Source: Candidatus Dormiibacterota bacterium (lineage in GTDB: Bacteria; Vulcanimicrobiota; Vulcanimicrobiia; Vulcanimicrobiales; Vulcanimicrobiaceae). From it: DNA of 64,000 nt. The first letter of the stretch is position 1, and each line of letters starts with the position of its first letter. The DNA lies in the NCBI GenBank assembly GCA_035532035.1, contig DATKRS010000004.1, positions 124,001 through 188,000 of the forward strand. Reading direction: 5' to 3'. The position numbers and the translations under genes are program-made. The notes under the pieces were generated by a model that did no database searches, was not told the origin of the DNA, and was given only the letters and a program-made list of their open reading frames with translations. Positions 1,408 through 8,591 of this stretch are shown in pieces.

Positions 1408-1435
1408 GTGCGCGCCTCTTATGGGCAGCAGCGCC

Positions 1436-3115: not shown

Positions 3116-3283
3116 CTATTCATCAGGAGTAGACCGCTTCGTGGGCTCAGCGATCTTCTCAACAATCTCTTCGACCTCTTCCTCGGCTTTCTTGAGGTCC
3201 TCTTTGGAAACGGAGAAGATGCGCCTCGCGAACTCCTCGAAGCGTTGCATCGGCGTGTCGCCGTCGCGAGACTTACGTTTCAT
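3116..3283 (-). CDS. Small charged protein (55 aa)
   Basis: Starts ATG 3283 and ends TAG 3116. The start overlaps the stop of the upstream membrane protein gene by one base (TAATG), a typical coupling arrangement. The sequence has a basic N-terminus (MKRKSRDGD), the segment FEEFARRIFSVSKEDLKKAE, and a long acidic helix. I know this pattern (phenylalanine-rich helix followed by V-S/P-K-E-D/E) from short conserved proteins found on mobile elements and near toxin-antitoxin loci, but no function is established. Length, coupling and amphipathic helix make it a likely real gene. Confidence 0.6.
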   Translation of the reverse strand: MKRKSRDGDTPMQRFEEFARRIFSVSKEDLKKAEEEVEEIVEKIAEPTKRSTPDE

Positions 3284-4221
3284 TATTGGTGTATATCGGG
3301 AAACCGAACGATGTGTTTGCCGCCAAATGCTGTGGGCGCGCGGCTGTGTTGCGGGAAGGTTGCGCCATGCACATCCGTCAGATTCGTCTGAGTCGGGTCA
3401 GCGATGGCTACAGCCTGATAGCCCGTGCGGTCGATCAGCACTATTCGAAGCTCTTGTACGTAGCTCTCGTCTTTGGGATAGGCGAAAAACACCCATCCCG
3501 ATACGACCCCGCCTGGTTGTATTGGGCGTTCAGTTTCAATGCCTAGGTCCATCGCCCTCGGCATAGGCCAACCAACTCCAAACCGATTCGACGAGAAATA
3601 ATAGTCAACTCCGTCGTCTTGGTCCGGCATTGTTGCAAGCGGAACCCACTGCCCATCTATCAGGGCTTGAGCCTCGTACTTCGCAAGCCAAAGCTCCGTC
3701 GCTCCGTTGAAGAGGCGGATGTAGACGGAGGCATTTACTGGACTAACAACGTCGTGCGAGGGTACATATGCGAACCATCCTGCTGCGGTTGAGGCAGAGC
3801 CCTTTGACCAGTAAGCATAGGGAATCGCGGCAACGAATAACGGGGGCCGCAGATGCTCATATGCTGTGGCTCCAATAACCCCTAGAAAAGTAACTACTAC
3901 CAAGATCGTCATTGGGATAGGCCAGGGTTGCTCTATTCTCGGTACAGGAGCATTCGGCACAAGCAGCGGCATGGACAGACGCTGCTCCTTCTGTTCAATG
4001 CTCAGGTACGCGCTATAGACGCTACCGATCATCAGGGCCACCAGCATCGCTATAATGAGAGCAGCGCCTAGGACAACGTGATTGAGCAGCACGACGGCAA
4101 ATCCGAGAATCCCGACGATCTCGGAACTCACGCGAAACGCCTTCGGCGTGCTGTCCCACGCGAGTTGCACGAATCCGGCTGGACCTTTAGCCACAACGGG
4201 CACGGTTCGCCCGCATGCCAC
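3283..4221 (-). CDS. Membrane protein with large extracytoplasmic domain, unknown
   Basis: A 312-residue protein with membrane segments near residues 35-75 (two adjacent helices) and about 105-122, followed by a soluble C-terminal region of about 190 residues rich in beta-type sequence (for example VSGWVFFAYP). No known domain recognised. Codon use is visibly AT-richer than in the surrounding housekeeping genes. Coupled to the 55-residue protein downstream by a TAATG junction. Likely accessory cargo of the 2.7-7.1 kb segment. Confidence 0.6.
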   Translation of the reverse strand: MACGRTVPVVAKGPAGFVQLAWDSTPKAFRVSSEIVGILGFAVVLLNHVVLGAALIIAMLVALMIGSVYSAYLSIEQKEQRLSMPLLVPNAPVPRIEQPWPIPMTILVVVTFLGVIGATAYEHLRPPLFVAAIPYAYWSKGSASTAAGWFAYVPSHDVVSPVNASVYIRLFNGATELWLAKYEAQALIDGQWVPLATMPDQDDGVDYYFSSNRFGVGWPMPRAMDLGIETERPIQPGGVVSGWVFFAYPKDESYVQELRIVLIDRTGYQAVAIADPTQTNLTDVHGATFPQHSRAPTAFGGKHIVRFPDIHQ

Positions 4222-4261
4222 GCTCCCCCGGCCATCACGAGGGCTGGTGACTCATGTGGCT

Positions 4262-4291
4262 TTGCCTACAAAAGCGCGGTTGCCCATAAAA
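4262..4291. repeat. Left TGCCYAYAAAA repeats (two adjoining units)
   Basis: Two adjoining direct units, TTGCCTACAAAAGCGCGG (4262-4279) and TTGCCCATAAAA (4280-4291). The same motif recurs at 7078-7137 in direct and inverted orientation, and I found it nowhere else in the window. The copies bracket the transposase and four of the small accessory genes. They could be element ends, or binding sites for a replication or regulatory protein. Confidence 0.55.
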
Positions 4292-4379
4292 TCAACCCGC
4301 TGCACAAAAATCACCCCGAAATTCACACGCGGTCCACAAGGAATCCCAGGGGACCCGGTAGCGAACGTATGTTTTCAGC

Positions 4380-4399
4380 GAGTCGCGATCTTGCGACTC
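4380..4399. promoter_or_regulatory. Inverted repeat ahead of the 52-aa gene
   Basis: GAGTCGC, a 6-nt spacer, then GCGACTC: a perfect 7-bp inverted repeat ending 14 nt before the AAGGAG ribosome site of the small gene at 4425. It could be an operator or an RNA hairpin near the 5' end of that message. No further evidence separates the two readings. Confidence 0.35.
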
Positions 4400-4424
4400 A
4401 CCCCTGAATAATAAGGAGTCCCAA

Positions 4425-4583
4425 ATGGCCGAGAAGGAAAAGCCAACCGGCAAGCTCGCAAGCGCCGCCGCGAAGGCTCTCCACGACCCAAGAACGGCGA
4501 CCCCGGCGATCATACGGAGCCTCGCCGCGCGCGTACTCGACTCGGAGAAGAACGACCCCCAACCCCACAAGAAGGGGAAGTAG
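4425..4583 (+). CDS. Small basic protein (52 aa) of mobile-element type
   Basis: ATG 4425 is preceded by a good ribosome site (AAGGAG at 4413-4418, 6 nt spacing). The product begins MAEKEKPTGKLASAAAKAL and continues with RSLAARVLDSEK and a lysine-rich end. Short proteins with the pattern S-A-A-A-K-A-L ... S-L-A-A-x-V-L are widespread in environmental and mobile genomes; their function is unknown. The last 25 codons overlap, convergently, the end of the minus-strand gene 4510-4839. Confidence 0.65.
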   Translation: MAEKEKPTGKLASAAAKALHDPRTATPAIIRSLAARVLDSEKNDPQPHKKGK

Positions 4584-4839
4584 GCAACTTCTCAACCGAG
4601 ACAATAGCACCGGCAGGGATGACCATGATGCCACTACCCTGCCGGTTTTCTTTTTCGTCCGGGTATGCGATATGAGGAGCAACCGTCTTTGATCGCTCGT
4701 CCTCGGCTATTAGGTAGCCGACCGAAACGCACTCCAGCGAATCGACGCCGCGCCATTCTTTGAGATCGTGCCATCCGCGCGGGCTGCTGCTATCCAGCCA
4801 TATAATTCGCACCAGGGGCCACGGCAACCGTTCCCTCAT
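4510..4839 (-). CDS. Conserved small accessory protein, unknown
   Basis: A 109-residue protein with the run VRIIWLDSSSPRGWHDLKEW, then CVSVGYLIAED, TVAPHIAYPDE and GIMVIPAGAIVSVEKL. This order (W-x-D-S ... S-V-G-Y-L ... V-A-P-H-I ... M-x-I-P) is one I recognise from small proteins of phages and integrated elements without known function. The last 24 residues overlap the opposite-strand small gene and look like read-through tail. It follows the zinc-ribbon gene by 18 nt on the same strand, so both probably share the promoter at 5014-5042. Confidence 0.65.
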   Translation of the reverse strand: MRERLPWPLVRIIWLDSSSPRGWHDLKEWRGVDSLECVSVGYLIAEDERSKTVAPHIAYPDEKENRQGSGIMVIPAGAIVSVEKLPTSPSCGVGGRSSPSRVRARRGSV

Positions 4840-4857
4840 GCTGCCGCCCCCGCTAGA

Positions 4858-5007
4858 TCAGCGGCTTTTCTTGCGCTCCTGGCGCGGCGTATTCCAATAT
4901 GGGCTCTTGCACCTTGGGCAGACCCGAGGCTCCTGGTCCTTATCTCGGGGAAGCCATTCGTGATCGCACCGCTCGCAGCGGTAGCCCGTGAGTTTGACCT
5001 TCGGCAT
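4858..5007 (-). CDS. Small zinc-ribbon protein (49 aa)
   Basis: Starts ATG 5007, stops TGA 4858. The product contains YRCERCDHEWLPR and RVCPRCKSPYWNTPR, two CxxC pairs about 22 residues apart, forming a rubredoxin-like zinc ribbon. Such short single-ribbon proteins ending in a K-S-P-Y-W-N motif are common on mobile elements. A strong sigma-70-type promoter (5014-5042) places the transcription start at or next to the ATG, with no ribosome site, so the message is probably leaderless. First gene of a two-gene minus-strand unit, divergent from the transposase. Confidence 0.7.
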   Translation of the reverse strand: MPKVKLTGYRCERCDHEWLPRDKDQEPRVCPRCKSPYWNTPRQERKKSR

Positions 5008-5013
5008 GGCCCC

Positions 5014-5042
5014 ACTATATACCCTAAAGGAATACCCGTCAA
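5014..5042 (-). promoter_or_regulatory. Promoter of the zinc-ribbon gene
   Basis: On the minus strand: TTGACG (5042-5037), 17-nt spacer, TATAGT (5019-5014). The predicted start is about 5007, the A of the start codon, implying a leaderless message. The spacer contains GGTATTCC, echoed as GGTATATTCC in the divergent transposase promoter, so a shared regulator is possible. Confidence 0.65.
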
Positions 5043-5058
5043 GTATATCCTCTTGGGG

Positions 5059-5087
5059 TTGACGAGAGCCTTCCTCTGTGGTATATT
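5059..5087 (+). promoter_or_regulatory. Promoter of the transposase gene
   Basis: TTGACG (5059-5064), 17-nt spacer, TATATT (5082-5087): close to the sigma-70 consensus with ideal spacing. It is followed by an ideal ribosome site (AGGAGG 5104-5109) 8 nt before the ATG at 5118. It lies back to back with the zinc-ribbon promoter, with 16 nt between the two -35 boxes. Confidence 0.7.
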
Positions 5088-5117
5088 CCTAGTAGAGATA
5101 TACAGGAGGGTACAGGG

Positions 5118-6341
5118 ATGGAAGCACGGGAGCAACGGGGCTTGGAGATCGCCGCAAAGACGCACCTGGAGCAGGGCAAGGGCGGCAAATGGCTCGTGCC
5201 CTCGTCCAAGGGCGACGGCTCCTACACCGTGGACCCGACCGTGTGGGATGGGACGACCTGCACTTGCCCCGACTACGAGTTGCATCGGTCGGCCTGCAAG
5301 CACGTCTATGCCGTCGAGTACACCATCCGCCGCGAGACGAAGGCCAAGGACGGAACGGTGACGACCGAGACGATCACCTACCGCCAGGAGTGGAGCGCAT
5401 ACAATGCCGCGCAGACAAACGAGAAGGCGCGCGTTGCCGAGCTTCTGCACGATCTCTGCTCGGTAATCGACAACCCAATTCAGAAGCGCGGTCGCCCGCG
5501 TCTTGCGCTCGCAGACTCGACCTTCTGCGCCGCGATGAAAGTCTATTGCGGAATGTCGGCCCGTCGCACCGCCGTCGATCTTCGGGAGCTTGCCGCTCGC
5601 GGCTTCATCGACCGTGCACCGCACTACAACTCCGTGCTCAATGCGCTGGAGAACCCTGACTTGACGCCGATTCTCAAGGCTCTTATCGAGGAGAGCGCGA
5701 GTCCGCTCGCCGCGCTCGAAACGGACTTCGCCGCCGATTCCTCGGGCTTCTCCACGAACACCTATGCTCGATGGTACGATCACAAGTACGGTCGCGAGAC
5801 GAGCTACAACCGCTGGCTCAAGGCGCATATCATGGTTGGAACCCGTACGAACGTCGTCACGAGCGTCGAGGTGACGGAATCGAACGTCAACGACTCCCCG
5901 ATGCTTCCCGCGCTCCTCAACACGTCGGCCAAGCGGTTTCAAATGAAGCGCGTCTCCGCCGATAAGGGCTACCTTGCGGAGTCGAACGTCCTGGCGATCA
6001 CCGCGCACGGTGCCGAACCATTCATCGCGCCGAAGGTCAACACCGCATTCACTCGTCCGCTTGACGCAAGCCGCAGAAAAGCCGCCGCATGGGACAAGAT
6101 GCTCGGCTACTACCTGTATCGCAGAGAGGACTTTCTGAAGCACTACCATCGCAGGTCCAACGTCGAAACAACCTTCGCCATGATTAAGGCCAAGTTCGGG
6201 AGCCGCGTTCGTTCTAAGACTGCTATCGCGGCCACGAATGAGGTCCTCTGTAAGGTTCTCTGCCACAACCTGTGCGTGTTGGTGCAGTCCGCGTACGAGC
6301 TTGGAATCGAAGCGACGTTCTGGGGAAAGCAAAGCGCCTAG
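5118..6341 (+). CDS. DDE transposase with N-terminal SWIM zinc finger
   Basis: A 407-residue protein. Residues 48-62 carry CxC and CxH (CTCPDYELHRSACKH), the SWIM zinc-finger pattern expected to bind DNA or protein. The rest resembles IS4/IS5-like DDE transposases: Asp207 (AADSSGF), Asp282 (SADKGYL) and Glu350 in HYHRRSNVETTF, followed by a conserved NEVLCKVLCHN region. All three catalytic acids are present and the gene looks intact. Strong promoter and ribosome site upstream. Clear terminal inverted repeats directly flanking this gene were not found; the only candidate ends are the TGCCYAYAAAA repeats about 0.8 kb away on each side. Confidence 0.85.
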   Translation: MEAREQRGLEIAAKTHLEQGKGGKWLVPSSKGDGSYTVDPTVWDGTTCTCPDYELHRSACKHVYAVEYTIRRETKAKDGTVTTETITYRQEWSAYNAAQTNEKARVAELLHDLCSVIDNPIQKRGRPRLALADSTFCAAMKVYCGMSARRTAVDLRELAARGFIDRAPHYNSVLNALENPDLTPILKALIEESASPLAALETDFAADSSGFSTNTYARWYDHKYGRETSYNRWLKAHIMVGTRTNVVTSVEVTESNVNDSPMLPALLNTSAKRFQMKRVSADKGYLAESNVLAITAHGAEPFIAPKVNTAFTRPLDASRRKAAAWDKMLGYYLYRREDFLKHYHRRSNVETTFAMIKAKFGSRVRSKTAIAATNEVLCKVLCHNLCVLVQSAYELGIEATFWGKQSA

Positions 6342-6410
6342 TAATGAACGAATCATCGGTGGGGCTTTCGGTTAGCAACGAAGAACCAGGCAACGCACGA
6401 CGCAATTCCA

Positions 6411-7058
6411 ATGGAGGATAATGCGAACGCTGCTAAAACCGCATCTTCCAGAATGTCAAGGTTGGCGGTGCTAGGCCACGATTTAGACTGGTGGAATGGG
6501 GTAATGCTCTTGTCGCTGCTGTTCGCGGCACTTGTGGCATTTGCGGTCGCTGGAACGACTAGCATTGTCATCCATCTCCAGCGACAAGAGGCCCAGGCAG
6601 CCAAAGTTACAATCGCATCTCTAGAGAACGATGCCGCACAGGCACGCCTTGAACAGGAACGCCTCAAAGAGCAACTCGCGTGGCGTGTTATACCGTCAGC
6701 TAACGCGGTGATATTAGAACGGATACTAGCTGCCCACCCTGGTTCCGTTAATCTAAAGTTCACCACTGGCGACTCGGAGGCTATATATTTAGCCGTGCAA
6801 TTCTCTAGGATTTTTGAGCAAGCGCATTGGCGCGTTGCTTCAGGTGCCCTCTCGTTCACGGGCGCAGTAGTCTTCGGAATACGGTTGTTACCTGGCTCGG
6901 CAGGGCCGGACGGCCAAACGCTAAGAGAGGCGTTGTCGGCAGCCGGCATGCCATTCTCAACCGAGGCCCTCCCACCGGTCACTATGGAGTTCGCTATGGG
7001 CAATTTTCCGAACGCGCCCACGTTGATGATCGGCTCAAAGTCGCCGCCTGCCATATAG
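6411..7058 (+). CDS. Membrane-anchored coiled-coil protein, unknown
   Basis: A 215-residue protein with one membrane helix at about residues 29-55 (WWNGVMLLSLLFAALVAFAV), then a heptad-like coiled coil of about 45 residues rich in Glu, Gln and Arg, then a globular C-terminal domain of about 120 residues. This layout (WWN near the helix, coiled coil, small alpha/beta end) recurs in accessory regions of many bacteria without known function. No clear ribosome site. Inside the repeat-bracketed segment, so probably cargo. Codon use matches the AT-richer accessory genes. Confidence 0.6.
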   Translation: MEDNANAAKTASSRMSRLAVLGHDLDWWNGVMLLSLLFAALVAFAVAGTTSIVIHLQRQEAQAAKVTIASLENDAAQARLEQERLKEQLAWRVIPSANAVILERILAAHPGSVNLKFTTGDSEAIYLAVQFSRIFEQAHWRVASGALSFTGAVVFGIRLLPGSAGPDGQTLREALSAAGMPFSTEALPPVTMEFAMGNFPNAPTLMIGSKSPPAI

Positions 7059-7077
7059 GTTGGCGCGCAGCCGACGC

Positions 7078-7137
7078 TTGCCCATAAAAGCACGGCGCTG
7101 CCCACAAAAGAGGGCCACAAACGCCCTTTATGGGCAA
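7078..7137. repeat. Right TGCCYAYAAAA repeats, direct and inverted
   Basis: Contains TTGCCCATAAAAGCACGG (7078-7095), CTGCCCACAAAAGAGGGC (7098-7115) and the inverted copy TTTATGGGCAA (7127-7137). The first and last form an 11-bp perfect inverted repeat. With the left copies at 4262-4291 they bracket about 2.8 kb of accessory genes. The right edge is only about 20 nt from the ribBA promoter. Confidence 0.55.
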
Positions 7138-7158
7138 ACCCGACTCATGTATATCGAC

Positions 7159-7187
7159 TTGACATTCGTAAACTCCCATTCTAATCT
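7159..7187 (+). promoter_or_regulatory. Promoter of ribBA
   Basis: TTGACA (7159-7164), 17-nt spacer, TAATCT (7182-7187). The expected start point (about 7193-7195) coincides with the GTG start codon of ribBA at 7194, and no ribosome site is visible, so the message should be leaderless. There is no room for, and no sign of, an FMN riboswitch between this promoter and the gene. Confidence 0.7.
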
Positions 7188-7193
7188 TGACGT

Positions 7194-8591
7194 GTGGAGA
7201 AAGGGTTTGCCGGGCGGTTGAACGCTGCCATGGAGGGAGCGGGACTGAGCGCTGCCGAGCTCGCGGATCGCTCGGGCTTGACGGAATCGGCCATATCGCT
7301 GCTGCGTGCCGGACGGCGCGAGCCTTCCTATAGAACGCTGCAGCGCTTGACGCATGTCATCCCGGCCCTCGCGTCGGAGCTGACAGGGGATTCGAACCCC
7401 TTCGATGCGATCGAGGGAGCCGTCGCCGATATCCGCGTCGGCAAGATGGTCGTCGTCCTAGACGACGAGGATCGCGAGAACGAAGGCGACCTCGTGATGG
7501 CCGCGCAGATGGTGACGCCGGACGCTATCAACTTCATGCGCCGGCATGGCGGCGGCCTCATCTGCGTTCCGCTGCCGGCGCGAAGGCTGGACGAGCTCCA
7601 ACTCCCTCAGATGGTGAGCGACAACACGGCGCTGCACGAGACGGCCTTCACCGTCTCGGTCGAGGCGCGGGGCCTCACGACGACCGGCATCTCCGCTCCC
7701 GACCGTGCGGCGACCATCAAGAAGTTGCTCGATCCCGAAGCGCGGCCGTCTGACTTCCTACGCCCGGGGCACACGTTTCCGCTGCGCGCGCGTGAAGGCG
7801 GCGTGCTCGTACGCGCCGGACAGACCGAAGCCGCCGTCGATCTCGCGCGCCTTGCCGGGCTGTACCCGGCGGGCGTCATCTGCGAGATCATGGCCGACGA
7901 CGGAACGATGGAGCGGCGCGACGGCTTGCGCAGCTTTGCTGATCGCCACGGCATGAAGCTCATCACCGTCAAGGACTTGATCGCGTATCGCATGCGCAAT
8001 GAGAAGCTCGTCAAGCGCGTGGCCGAGTTCACGCTTCCTACGACGAACGGCACGTGGCGCGGGGTCGCCTACGAGAATACCGTCGATAGCAACGCGCACG
8101 TCGCGCTCGTCATGGGGGAGATCGGTGACGGAAAGGACGTTCTCGTGCGCGTCCATTCGGAGTGCTTGACGGGTGATGCCCTCCACTCCCTGCGCTGCGA
8201 CTGTGCGGCACAGCGCGACGGCGCCATGGCGATGATCGCCGAAGAAAAGCGCGGCGTCTTCTTGTATCTCCGCCAGGAAGGCCGCGGCATCGGGCTTGCG
8301 AACAAGCTGCGCGCGTACGAACTGCAAGATCGCGGTGCGGACACCGTCGAGGCAAACATCGCGCTCGGACTTCCCGTGGACAAGCGGGATTACGGGATCG
8401 GTTCGCAGATCCTGCACGATCTCGGCGTGCGCGCGATGCGCGTGATCACCAACAACCCGAAGAAGATATTCGGGCTCGAGGGATACGGCCTCACGATCGC
8501 ATCCCGCGTTCCGCTCCACACGCTGCCGACGCCGCACAACGAGCGCTACATCGCGACCAAGCGCGCAAAACTCGGTCACCTGGTCTCGTGA
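7194..8591 (+). CDS. ribBA: HTH domain fused to RibBA (DHBP synthase / GTP cyclohydrolase II)
   Basis: Bifunctional riboflavin enzyme: makes 3,4-dihydroxy-2-butanone-4-phosphate from ribulose-5-phosphate, and the pyrimidine precursor from GTP. Residues 69-270 are RibB (DDEDRENEGD at 90-99, TTGISAPDRAATI). Residues 272-465 are RibA (zinc ligands in HSECLTGDALHSLRCDC, RQEGRGIGL). Unusually, residues 1-65 form a Cro/C1-type helix-turn-helix (LSAAELADRSGLTESAISLL) in frame with the enzyme; standard RibBA is about 400 residues. The GTG start at 7194 is needed for the whole HTH and matches the promoter geometry. Overlaps ribH by 4 nt. The HTH may make the enzyme its own regulator. Confidence 0.93.
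   Translation: MEKGFAGRLNAAMEGAGLSAAELADRSGLTESAISLLRAGRREPSYRTLQRLTHVIPALASELTGDSNPFDAIEGAVADIRVGKMVVVLDDEDRENEGDLVMAAQMVTPDAINFMRRHGGGLICVPLPARRLDELQLPQMVSDNTALHETAFTVSVEARGLTTTGISAPDRAATIKKLLDPEARPSDFLRPGHTFPLRAREGGVLVRAGQTEAAVDLARLAGLYPAGVICEIMADDGTMERRDGLRSFADRHGMKLITVKDLIAYRMRNEKLVKRVAEFTLPTTNGTWRGVAYENTVDSNAHVALVMGEIGDGKDVLVRVHSECLTGDALHSLRCDCAAQRDGAMAMIAEEKRGVFLYLRQEGRGIGLANKLRAYELQDRGADTVEANIALGLPVDKRDYGIGSQILHDLGVRAMRVITNNPKKIFGLEGYGLTIASRVPLHTLPTPHNERYIATKRAKLGHLVS

Follow-up and report, generated by a model that had tools for sequence, protein, structure and literature searches.

The stretch of DNA analysed here (the window) comprises 64,000 nucleotides (nt) of Candidatus Dormiibacterota bacterium (assembly GCA_035532035.1, contig DATKRS010000004.1, positions 124,001 to 188,000 of the forward strand). 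It contains, at positions 4258-7141, what is very probably a cargo-carrying DNA transposon, whose transposase combines a SWIM finger with a DDE domain near that of IS903 and which, as judged from its insertion sites, inserts at a fixed distance from a host promoter landmark in either orientation. Sequence comparison gives good support to the view that the segment is a real small mobile element, as an original prediction made from the letters of the window had proposed. It also supports well, and unexpectedly, targeted insertion at the promoter of the host gene ribBA.

Boundaries of the element

The transposon is complete (2884 bp) and is flanked on both sides by a perfect 9-bp direct repeat, GACTCATGT; on the plus strand of the window, the 8-mer ACTCATGT occurs only in these two copies. 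The ends are imperfect inverted repeats, GGSTTTGCCYAYAAA, which begin with GGCTTTG. The original prediction had described an element of about 2.9 kb bounded by TGCCYAYAAAA repeats at 4262 and 7137. Those positions lie near the true ends (4258 and 7141), and the target duplication that it proposed to look for beside them appeared as a perfect 9-bp copy once the ends were shifted outward by about 5 bp. The features of the ends are as follows.

4258..7141, plus strand: whole transposon, with inverted ends inside the perfect 9-bp direct repeat
4249..4257: target duplication GACTCATGT, left copy (from the sequence)
7142..7150: target duplication GACTCATGT, right copy (from the sequence)
4258..4273, plus strand: left terminal inverted repeat GGCTTTGCCTACAAAA, iteron core at +5 (12/16 match to the right end)
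4281..4291, plus strand: left iteron at +23, direct (repeat scan)
4301..4310, plus strand: third left unit, iteron at +43, degenerate TGCACAAAAA (position as in relatives)
7079..7089, plus strand: right iteron at +53 from the right end, inverted relative to that end (repeat scan)
7099..7109, plus strand: right iteron at +33 from the right end, inverted relative to that end (repeat scan)
7126..7141, minus strand: right terminal inverted repeat GGGTTTGCCCATAAAG (end comparison)

All of the predicted repeat units, two on the left and three on the right with one inverted, were located at 4263-4273(+), 4281-4291(+), 7079-7089(+), 7099-7109(+) and 7126-7136(-, one mismatch). When at most one mismatch was allowed, the window held six matches to TGCCYAYAAAA (0.65 expected), a number reached by none of 100 shuffles; the sixth, at 1417-1427(-), lies outside the element. 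In the whole 2.25-Mb genome, TTGCCYAYAAA has four copies, every one at this element, so the repeats are not common elsewhere. Nor were they present next to ribBA in element-free relatives, including five of the same genus. The GC content of the element (58.2%), predicted to be lower than that of its surroundings, was lower than that of the right 2 kb (66.1%) but not than that of the left 2 kb (58.0%).

The transposase and its relatives

The predicted DDE transposase with a SWIM finger was borne out by a domain search (SWIM, 2.5e-7; DDE_Tnp_1, 3e-27).

5118..6341, plus strand: transposase, 407 amino acids (aa), SWIM finger at residues 44-69, DDE domain with D207, D282 and E350

The residues C48, C50, C60 and H62 and the triad D207, D282 and E350 were invariant among 42 aligned relatives. 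The AlphaFold2 model of the protein had a mean pLDDT (predicted local distance difference test) of 88, and its best PDB match was Tn5 transposase, at a TM (template modelling) score of about 0.4. DDE transposition is strongly implied.

The transposase gene is single copy in its own genome, and a match was found in 28 of 198 genomes searched, its own included. A profile scan of genome contigs revealed 294 encoded relatives, 80 of which were taken into the locus analyses. According to record titles, the relatives come from bacteria (Eremiobacterota, Acidobacteria, Chloroflexi, Planctomycetota, Verrucomicrobia, Myxococcota, Actinobacteria and Alphaproteobacteria) and archaea (Aenigmatarchaeota, Woesearchaeota and Nanoarchaeota). 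GGCTTTG-like ends with matching duplications defined an element at 53 of 88 loci (the window, the 80 and seven others), with GGCTT at 43/53 left ends and 43/53 right ends. Among the window and the 80 relatives, the duplication was 9 bp long in 44/81 and 10 bp in 7/81, and never 7, 8 or 11 bp; when left ends were paired with the right ends of other loci as a control, 0/799 pairs matched at 8-11 bp. The elements were 2140-7953 bp long (median 3939).

A phage or viral origin was rejected, as no match was found in 50,697 phage records and viral contigs gave three pattern matches and no relative. A plasmid-borne element was likewise rejected: the transposase matched 151 plasmid records, all below 60% identity, and the 30 matches listed had about 26-30% identity and were mostly annotated as IS5 family. 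A second group of SWIM-bearing DDE proteins (L019 and L020; 536-540 aa, about 25-27% identical to the window transposase) occurs in the same host family. Further, at the right flank of L089 and at L086, L123 and L085, the ends of a second element adjoin or nest around the first; some share the same duplication, and elements seem to accumulate at one site.

Iterons at the element ends

The TGCCYAYAAAA units represent the terminal core, repeated inside both element ends at set spacings. Among the 53 elements, iterons of the element's own core numbered 2.70 per element within the outer 250 bp, when one mismatch was allowed and terminal copies were not counted, versus 0.06 in an equal interior length and 0.045 for foreign, unrelated cores. 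At least one iteron was present in 46/53 elements and at least two in 44/53. Their usual places were +23 and +43, direct, on the left, and +33, inverted, and +53, inverted, or +54, direct, on the right; this asymmetry is common, not universal.

The terminal core varies among elements (TGCCCAY, TGCACAA, TGTATCA, TGTTTAA and others), and core similarity tracked transposase sequence (Mantel r 0.34, 0/2000 permutations, n=36). A few of the 53 elements are weaker, L122 and L123 among them; all were kept in the iteron count, and these two were excluded from the Mantel test. The iterons are thus putative transposase binding sites.

Insertion next to the ribBA promoter

When the joined flanks of the window element were searched for in relatives, the ribBA side alone matched. 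The target features in the window are as follows.

7194..8591, plus strand: host ribBA gene with an N-terminal helix-turn-helix, target gene, outside the element (domain search)
7158..7173, plus strand: target landmark CTTGACATTCGTAAAC of the ribBA promoter, with TTGACA 17 nt from the element end (upstream-region comparison)

Comparison of 24 ribBA upstream regions revealed five genera in which an element ends at a common position, some 55-65 bp ahead of ribBA and shortly before TTGACA. We therefore searched 99 genomes of the host family for an element end followed by TTGACA, allowing 13-19 nt between them. Seven matches were obtained, five at 17 nt and two at 18 nt, and the reversed control gave no match in the same genomes. 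Six of the seven were at ribBA; the seventh, in G039, was at another gene, at a near-perfect palindrome. Three ribBA cases, those of G056, G076 and the window, came in addition to the pattern matches. Among the 80 ribBA loci for which 70 bp or more of upstream sequence was available, nine carry an element end 17-18 nt before TTGACA; eight of these were detected by script, and the one in G076, which spans a scaffold gap, by eye.

Five ribBA loci (window, G043, G076, G031 and G019) have intact duplications that all differ from one another, and in G043 the element lies in reversed orientation; the ribBA insertions are therefore independent. At the ribBA loci of G036, G050, G056 and G018, no second duplication copy was found. 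A pre-insertion-like site was found in G083, a congener of G076, where an unoccupied GGCCTCAGGTATATCATCTTGACA corresponds to GCCTCAGGT|ATATCACCTTGACA in G076. Of 10 genomes searched, 9 have the word TTGACANNTGTNAAG at a single place each; the genome of the window, in which the ribBA promoter is degenerate, has none. In G039 this place lies about 2 kb upstream of ribBA (L266, G039:C30:129800-133459) and is a perfect palindrome of 36 bp, GGTATATCGTCTTGACAGATGTCAAGACGATATACC, and a similar palindrome stands in contig C22 of that genome, where the element end sits.

The RibBA protein encoded at 7194-8591 comprises both riboflavin enzymes fused to an N-terminal HTH_3 domain. A TTGACAnnTGTCAAG-like promoter palindrome precedes ribBA in most relatives, and RibBA is perhaps a self-regulating riboflavin enzyme.

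Other target sites

In G050 (L034), G080 (L055) and G076, the promoter of one orthologous gene contains TTAGGnnnnCCTAA, and an element end lies exactly 38 nt before it; as judged by reading the sequence, the gene resembles one for a multicopper oxidase. The pattern of this promoter gave six places and one reversed-control match: these three were exact, the match in G072 is doubtful (no iterons at 32 nt), and those in G083 and G015 were set aside as they look like chance. In G065 and G048, which belong to one genus, opposite element ends lie 12 nt before GCATAATTAT, a palindrome upstream of an argF-like gene (by reading), which we take to be ARG-box-like; no second duplication copy was found in G048. 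Outside the host family, L072 and L089 have a common duplication and the target ACACTTCGT, the right flank ATAATnTnTATTATCnGACGC is common to L101 and L107, and many Chloroflexota elements sit in CCCTCTCCC-n-GGGAGAGGG-like palindromes.

Alternative explanations

The strongest alternative, which we still regard as unlikely, is that the element lacks its own target reader and would prefer palindromic or bent DNA, as IS903-type elements do, the sites upstream of promoters being what selection leaves. Consistent with this, a strong inverted repeat (score of at least 8) was found near 13/52 sites versus 3% of 2120 control positions, several of them centred on the duplication. A palindrome centred on the duplication was nevertheless rejected as a general rule, because its excess was modest (4.96 versus 3.66 of 14 pairs in 45 elements) and many sites show no palindrome. 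At ribBA, moreover, the landmark is off-centre, there is no symmetry about the duplication, and the distance is fixed within 1 bp though 13-19 nt were allowed, a single-base position that selection alone does not fix.

It is more doubtful that the small zinc-ribbon protein encoded divergently to the transposase selects the target, reading it like its own promoter. This protein is conserved in that arrangement in 30/72 loci across phyla, and words resembling TATAT and TTGACA are present in its own promoter region as well as at the ribBA targets. However, its cysteine pattern was not detected in 42/72 loci, and the common words, seen by eye, may be ordinary -35/-10 boxes.

Finally, a single ancient insertion before ribBA in the family ancestor, kept by few lineages and lost by most, with no targeting, fits the restriction of all carriers to one host family and the mutually closest relationship of the ribBA-site transposases (about 70-92% identity), but it is very improbable: it is largely refuted by the duplications of the five carriers, whose two copies agree inside each genome but not from one genome to the next, and also has against it the reversed element of G043, the unlike cargo of the carriers, the 71/80 ribBA loci free of the element, congeners included, and the same behaviour at the oxidase and argF promoters, at argF with opposite ends.

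Several observations weigh against fixed-distance insertion by a mobile element. Mobility is read from sequence, and no transposition has been observed. No exact empty site for the window element was found when its joined flanks were compared with 60 genomes, because the left flank is not conserved in relatives. The distance to the landmark is not equal across the three target genes (ribBA, oxidase and argF), and the elements of G003, G067 and G055 have no visible or common landmark. At one mismatch, 7/53 elements have no iteron, and those at the oxidase site carry direct iterons at both ends in place of the usual left/right asymmetry. Further, nearly all relatives are metagenome-assembled, and single hosts may be mis-binned.

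Comparison with known systems

By its sequence, the element is best called a member of an IS903-related group and not IS903 itself, because its IS5_2 score is below the cut-off and its SWIM part is unmatched. IS903 (IS903B of plasmid Rts1, NC_003905; IS5 family) generates a 9-bp target duplication, and the GGCTTTG start of the ends is common to both elements. The IS903 transposase (322 aa) aligned with residues 90-384 of the window transposase (hhalign 98.4%, E 5e-15, 23% identity), leaving the SWIM part out. IS5_2 was the top NCBIfam model for both, with 356 bits for IS903 and 126 bits for the window transposase (cut-off 140); four relatives scored 104-140, all under the cut-off. In contrast to IS903, a short transposase-only element of 1057 bp with perfect 18-bp ends, GGCTTTGTTGAATAAATC, the window element has imperfect ends and adds iterons, a zinc-ribbon gene, cargo and a fixed target.

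Tn7 also has several binding sites at its ends and inserts at a fixed distance next to a conserved gene. Unlike Tn7, the window element has a 9-bp rather than a 5-bp duplication, uses both orientations and lacks tns genes, no tns or TniQ/TnsD family being found among the ORFs (open reading frames) of the window.

Insertion at a set distance by a lone transposase has a precedent in the IS1202 family, in which that of ISAjo2 inserts at a fixed 5 bp from a protein-binding site and an extra internal binding site lies near each end (PMC10132070), features comparable to those proposed for the window element. The same source describes a TnsB-like transposase, TGT ends, a 5-bp duplication, one orientation and dif sites, whereas the window element has GGC ends and a transposase with DDE_Tnp_1 and SWIM domains and no TnsB family match.

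The SWIM finger is found in many transposases of eukaryotic Mutator-like elements (MULEs), and the 8-11 bp duplications of these elements are also shared with the window element (PMC6446971). In contrast, the window transposase has a DDE_Tnp_1/IS5-type domain, Tn5 as its best structural match and prokaryotic hosts; no MULE model in Pfam or NCBIfam matched it, and DDE_Tnp_1 and IS5 models did so instead. The shared SWIM finger is likely convergent.

In the open literature (PMC), with subscription papers, preprints and ISfinder outside the scope, we found neither SWIM-bearing transposons of the IS5 type nor targeting of the ribBA promoter described.

Proposed mechanism and implications

The transposase would bind the terminal core and the iterons and pair the ends, and the element would be moved by DDE chemistry, probably by cut-and-paste, and joined with a 9-bp stagger. 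The zinc-ribbon protein, encoded divergently, may repress or assist the transposase. Most likely, the transposase complex would capture palindromic promoter or operator DNA, perhaps with a host regulator bound; landing just upstream of the promoter would leave the gene unbroken.

More tentatively, and at somewhat less than even chance, these elements may form a wide group of SWIM-DDE single-transposase elements, often with a zinc-ribbon partner, that recognise a promoter or operator of the host and thereby choose a single safe site in the chromosome. The complex would dock on operator DNA or its bound regulator and insert at a set distance in either orientation, like Tn7 without TnsD, and would carry restriction-modification genes from one phylum to another.

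Site choice by single-gene insertion sequences is mostly regarded as loose. Here, a compact transposase that carries kilobases of cargo, and has no known targeting proteins, would repeatedly reach the same base position next to a promoter, and most of the carrier genomes searched have the ribBA landmark motif only once. The recognition rule, if worked out, would help to explain the harmless spread of defence genes and could yield a small site-directed insertion enzyme. Further, the SWIM finger, known from eukaryotic Mutator transposases, is now placed in an IS5-type prokaryotic enzyme.

Accessory genes and cargo

The original prediction counted four accessory genes besides the transposase. Three ORFs were credited, and the fourth was not secured.

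4425..4583, plus strand: 52-aa ORF with AAGGAG upstream (no family match)
4858..5007, minus strand: 49-aa zinc-ribbon protein, divergent to the transposase (homologues at the same place in 30/72 loci)
5008..5117: divergent promoter region of the zinc-ribbon and transposase genes (TATACC/TTGACA-like motifs recur in relatives, by eye)
6411..7058, plus strand: 215-aa ORF, cargo (no family match)

The zinc-ribbon gene is the only accessory ORF of the window element that recurs in relatives, and its homologues follow the pattern GYRCERCxHEWLPRDxxxEPKVCPKCKSPYWN. In the divergent promoter region, TATACCTnnTAGTAATATA-like words recur (by eye), which would fit self-repression. The 215-aa ORF gave itself and one weak match in the 99 family genomes.

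The cargo scan covered 133 ORFs: two from the window and 131 from a set of 164 with a length of at least 110 aa, from which every ORF of L108 and several short or doubtful ORFs were excluded. Among the matches listed (25 of 39 Pfam families), the commonest families were N6_Mtase (7), UPF0020 (7) and Eco57I (5), followed by P63C and MmeI_Mtase (4 each) and N6_N4_Mtase, Peptidase_M78, HSDR_N_2 and HTH_3 (3 each); C5 methylase, Mrr, AlwI, SfiI, Vsr, SocA/Panacea and DUF488 each occurred once or twice. These families overlap, and the majority of cargo ORFs match none of those listed. PADLOC concurred on the methyltransferases; a 'mad2' count in the scan was discarded as probable methyltransferase cross-matching. 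The family counts thus indicate restriction-modification and toxin-antitoxin-like genes as recurrent cargo.

Outside the element, a low-GC ORF of 312 aa at 3283-4221 (minus strand) starts 27 bp from the left duplication. It has no clear family match and its DNA was not found in relatives; it looks acquired.

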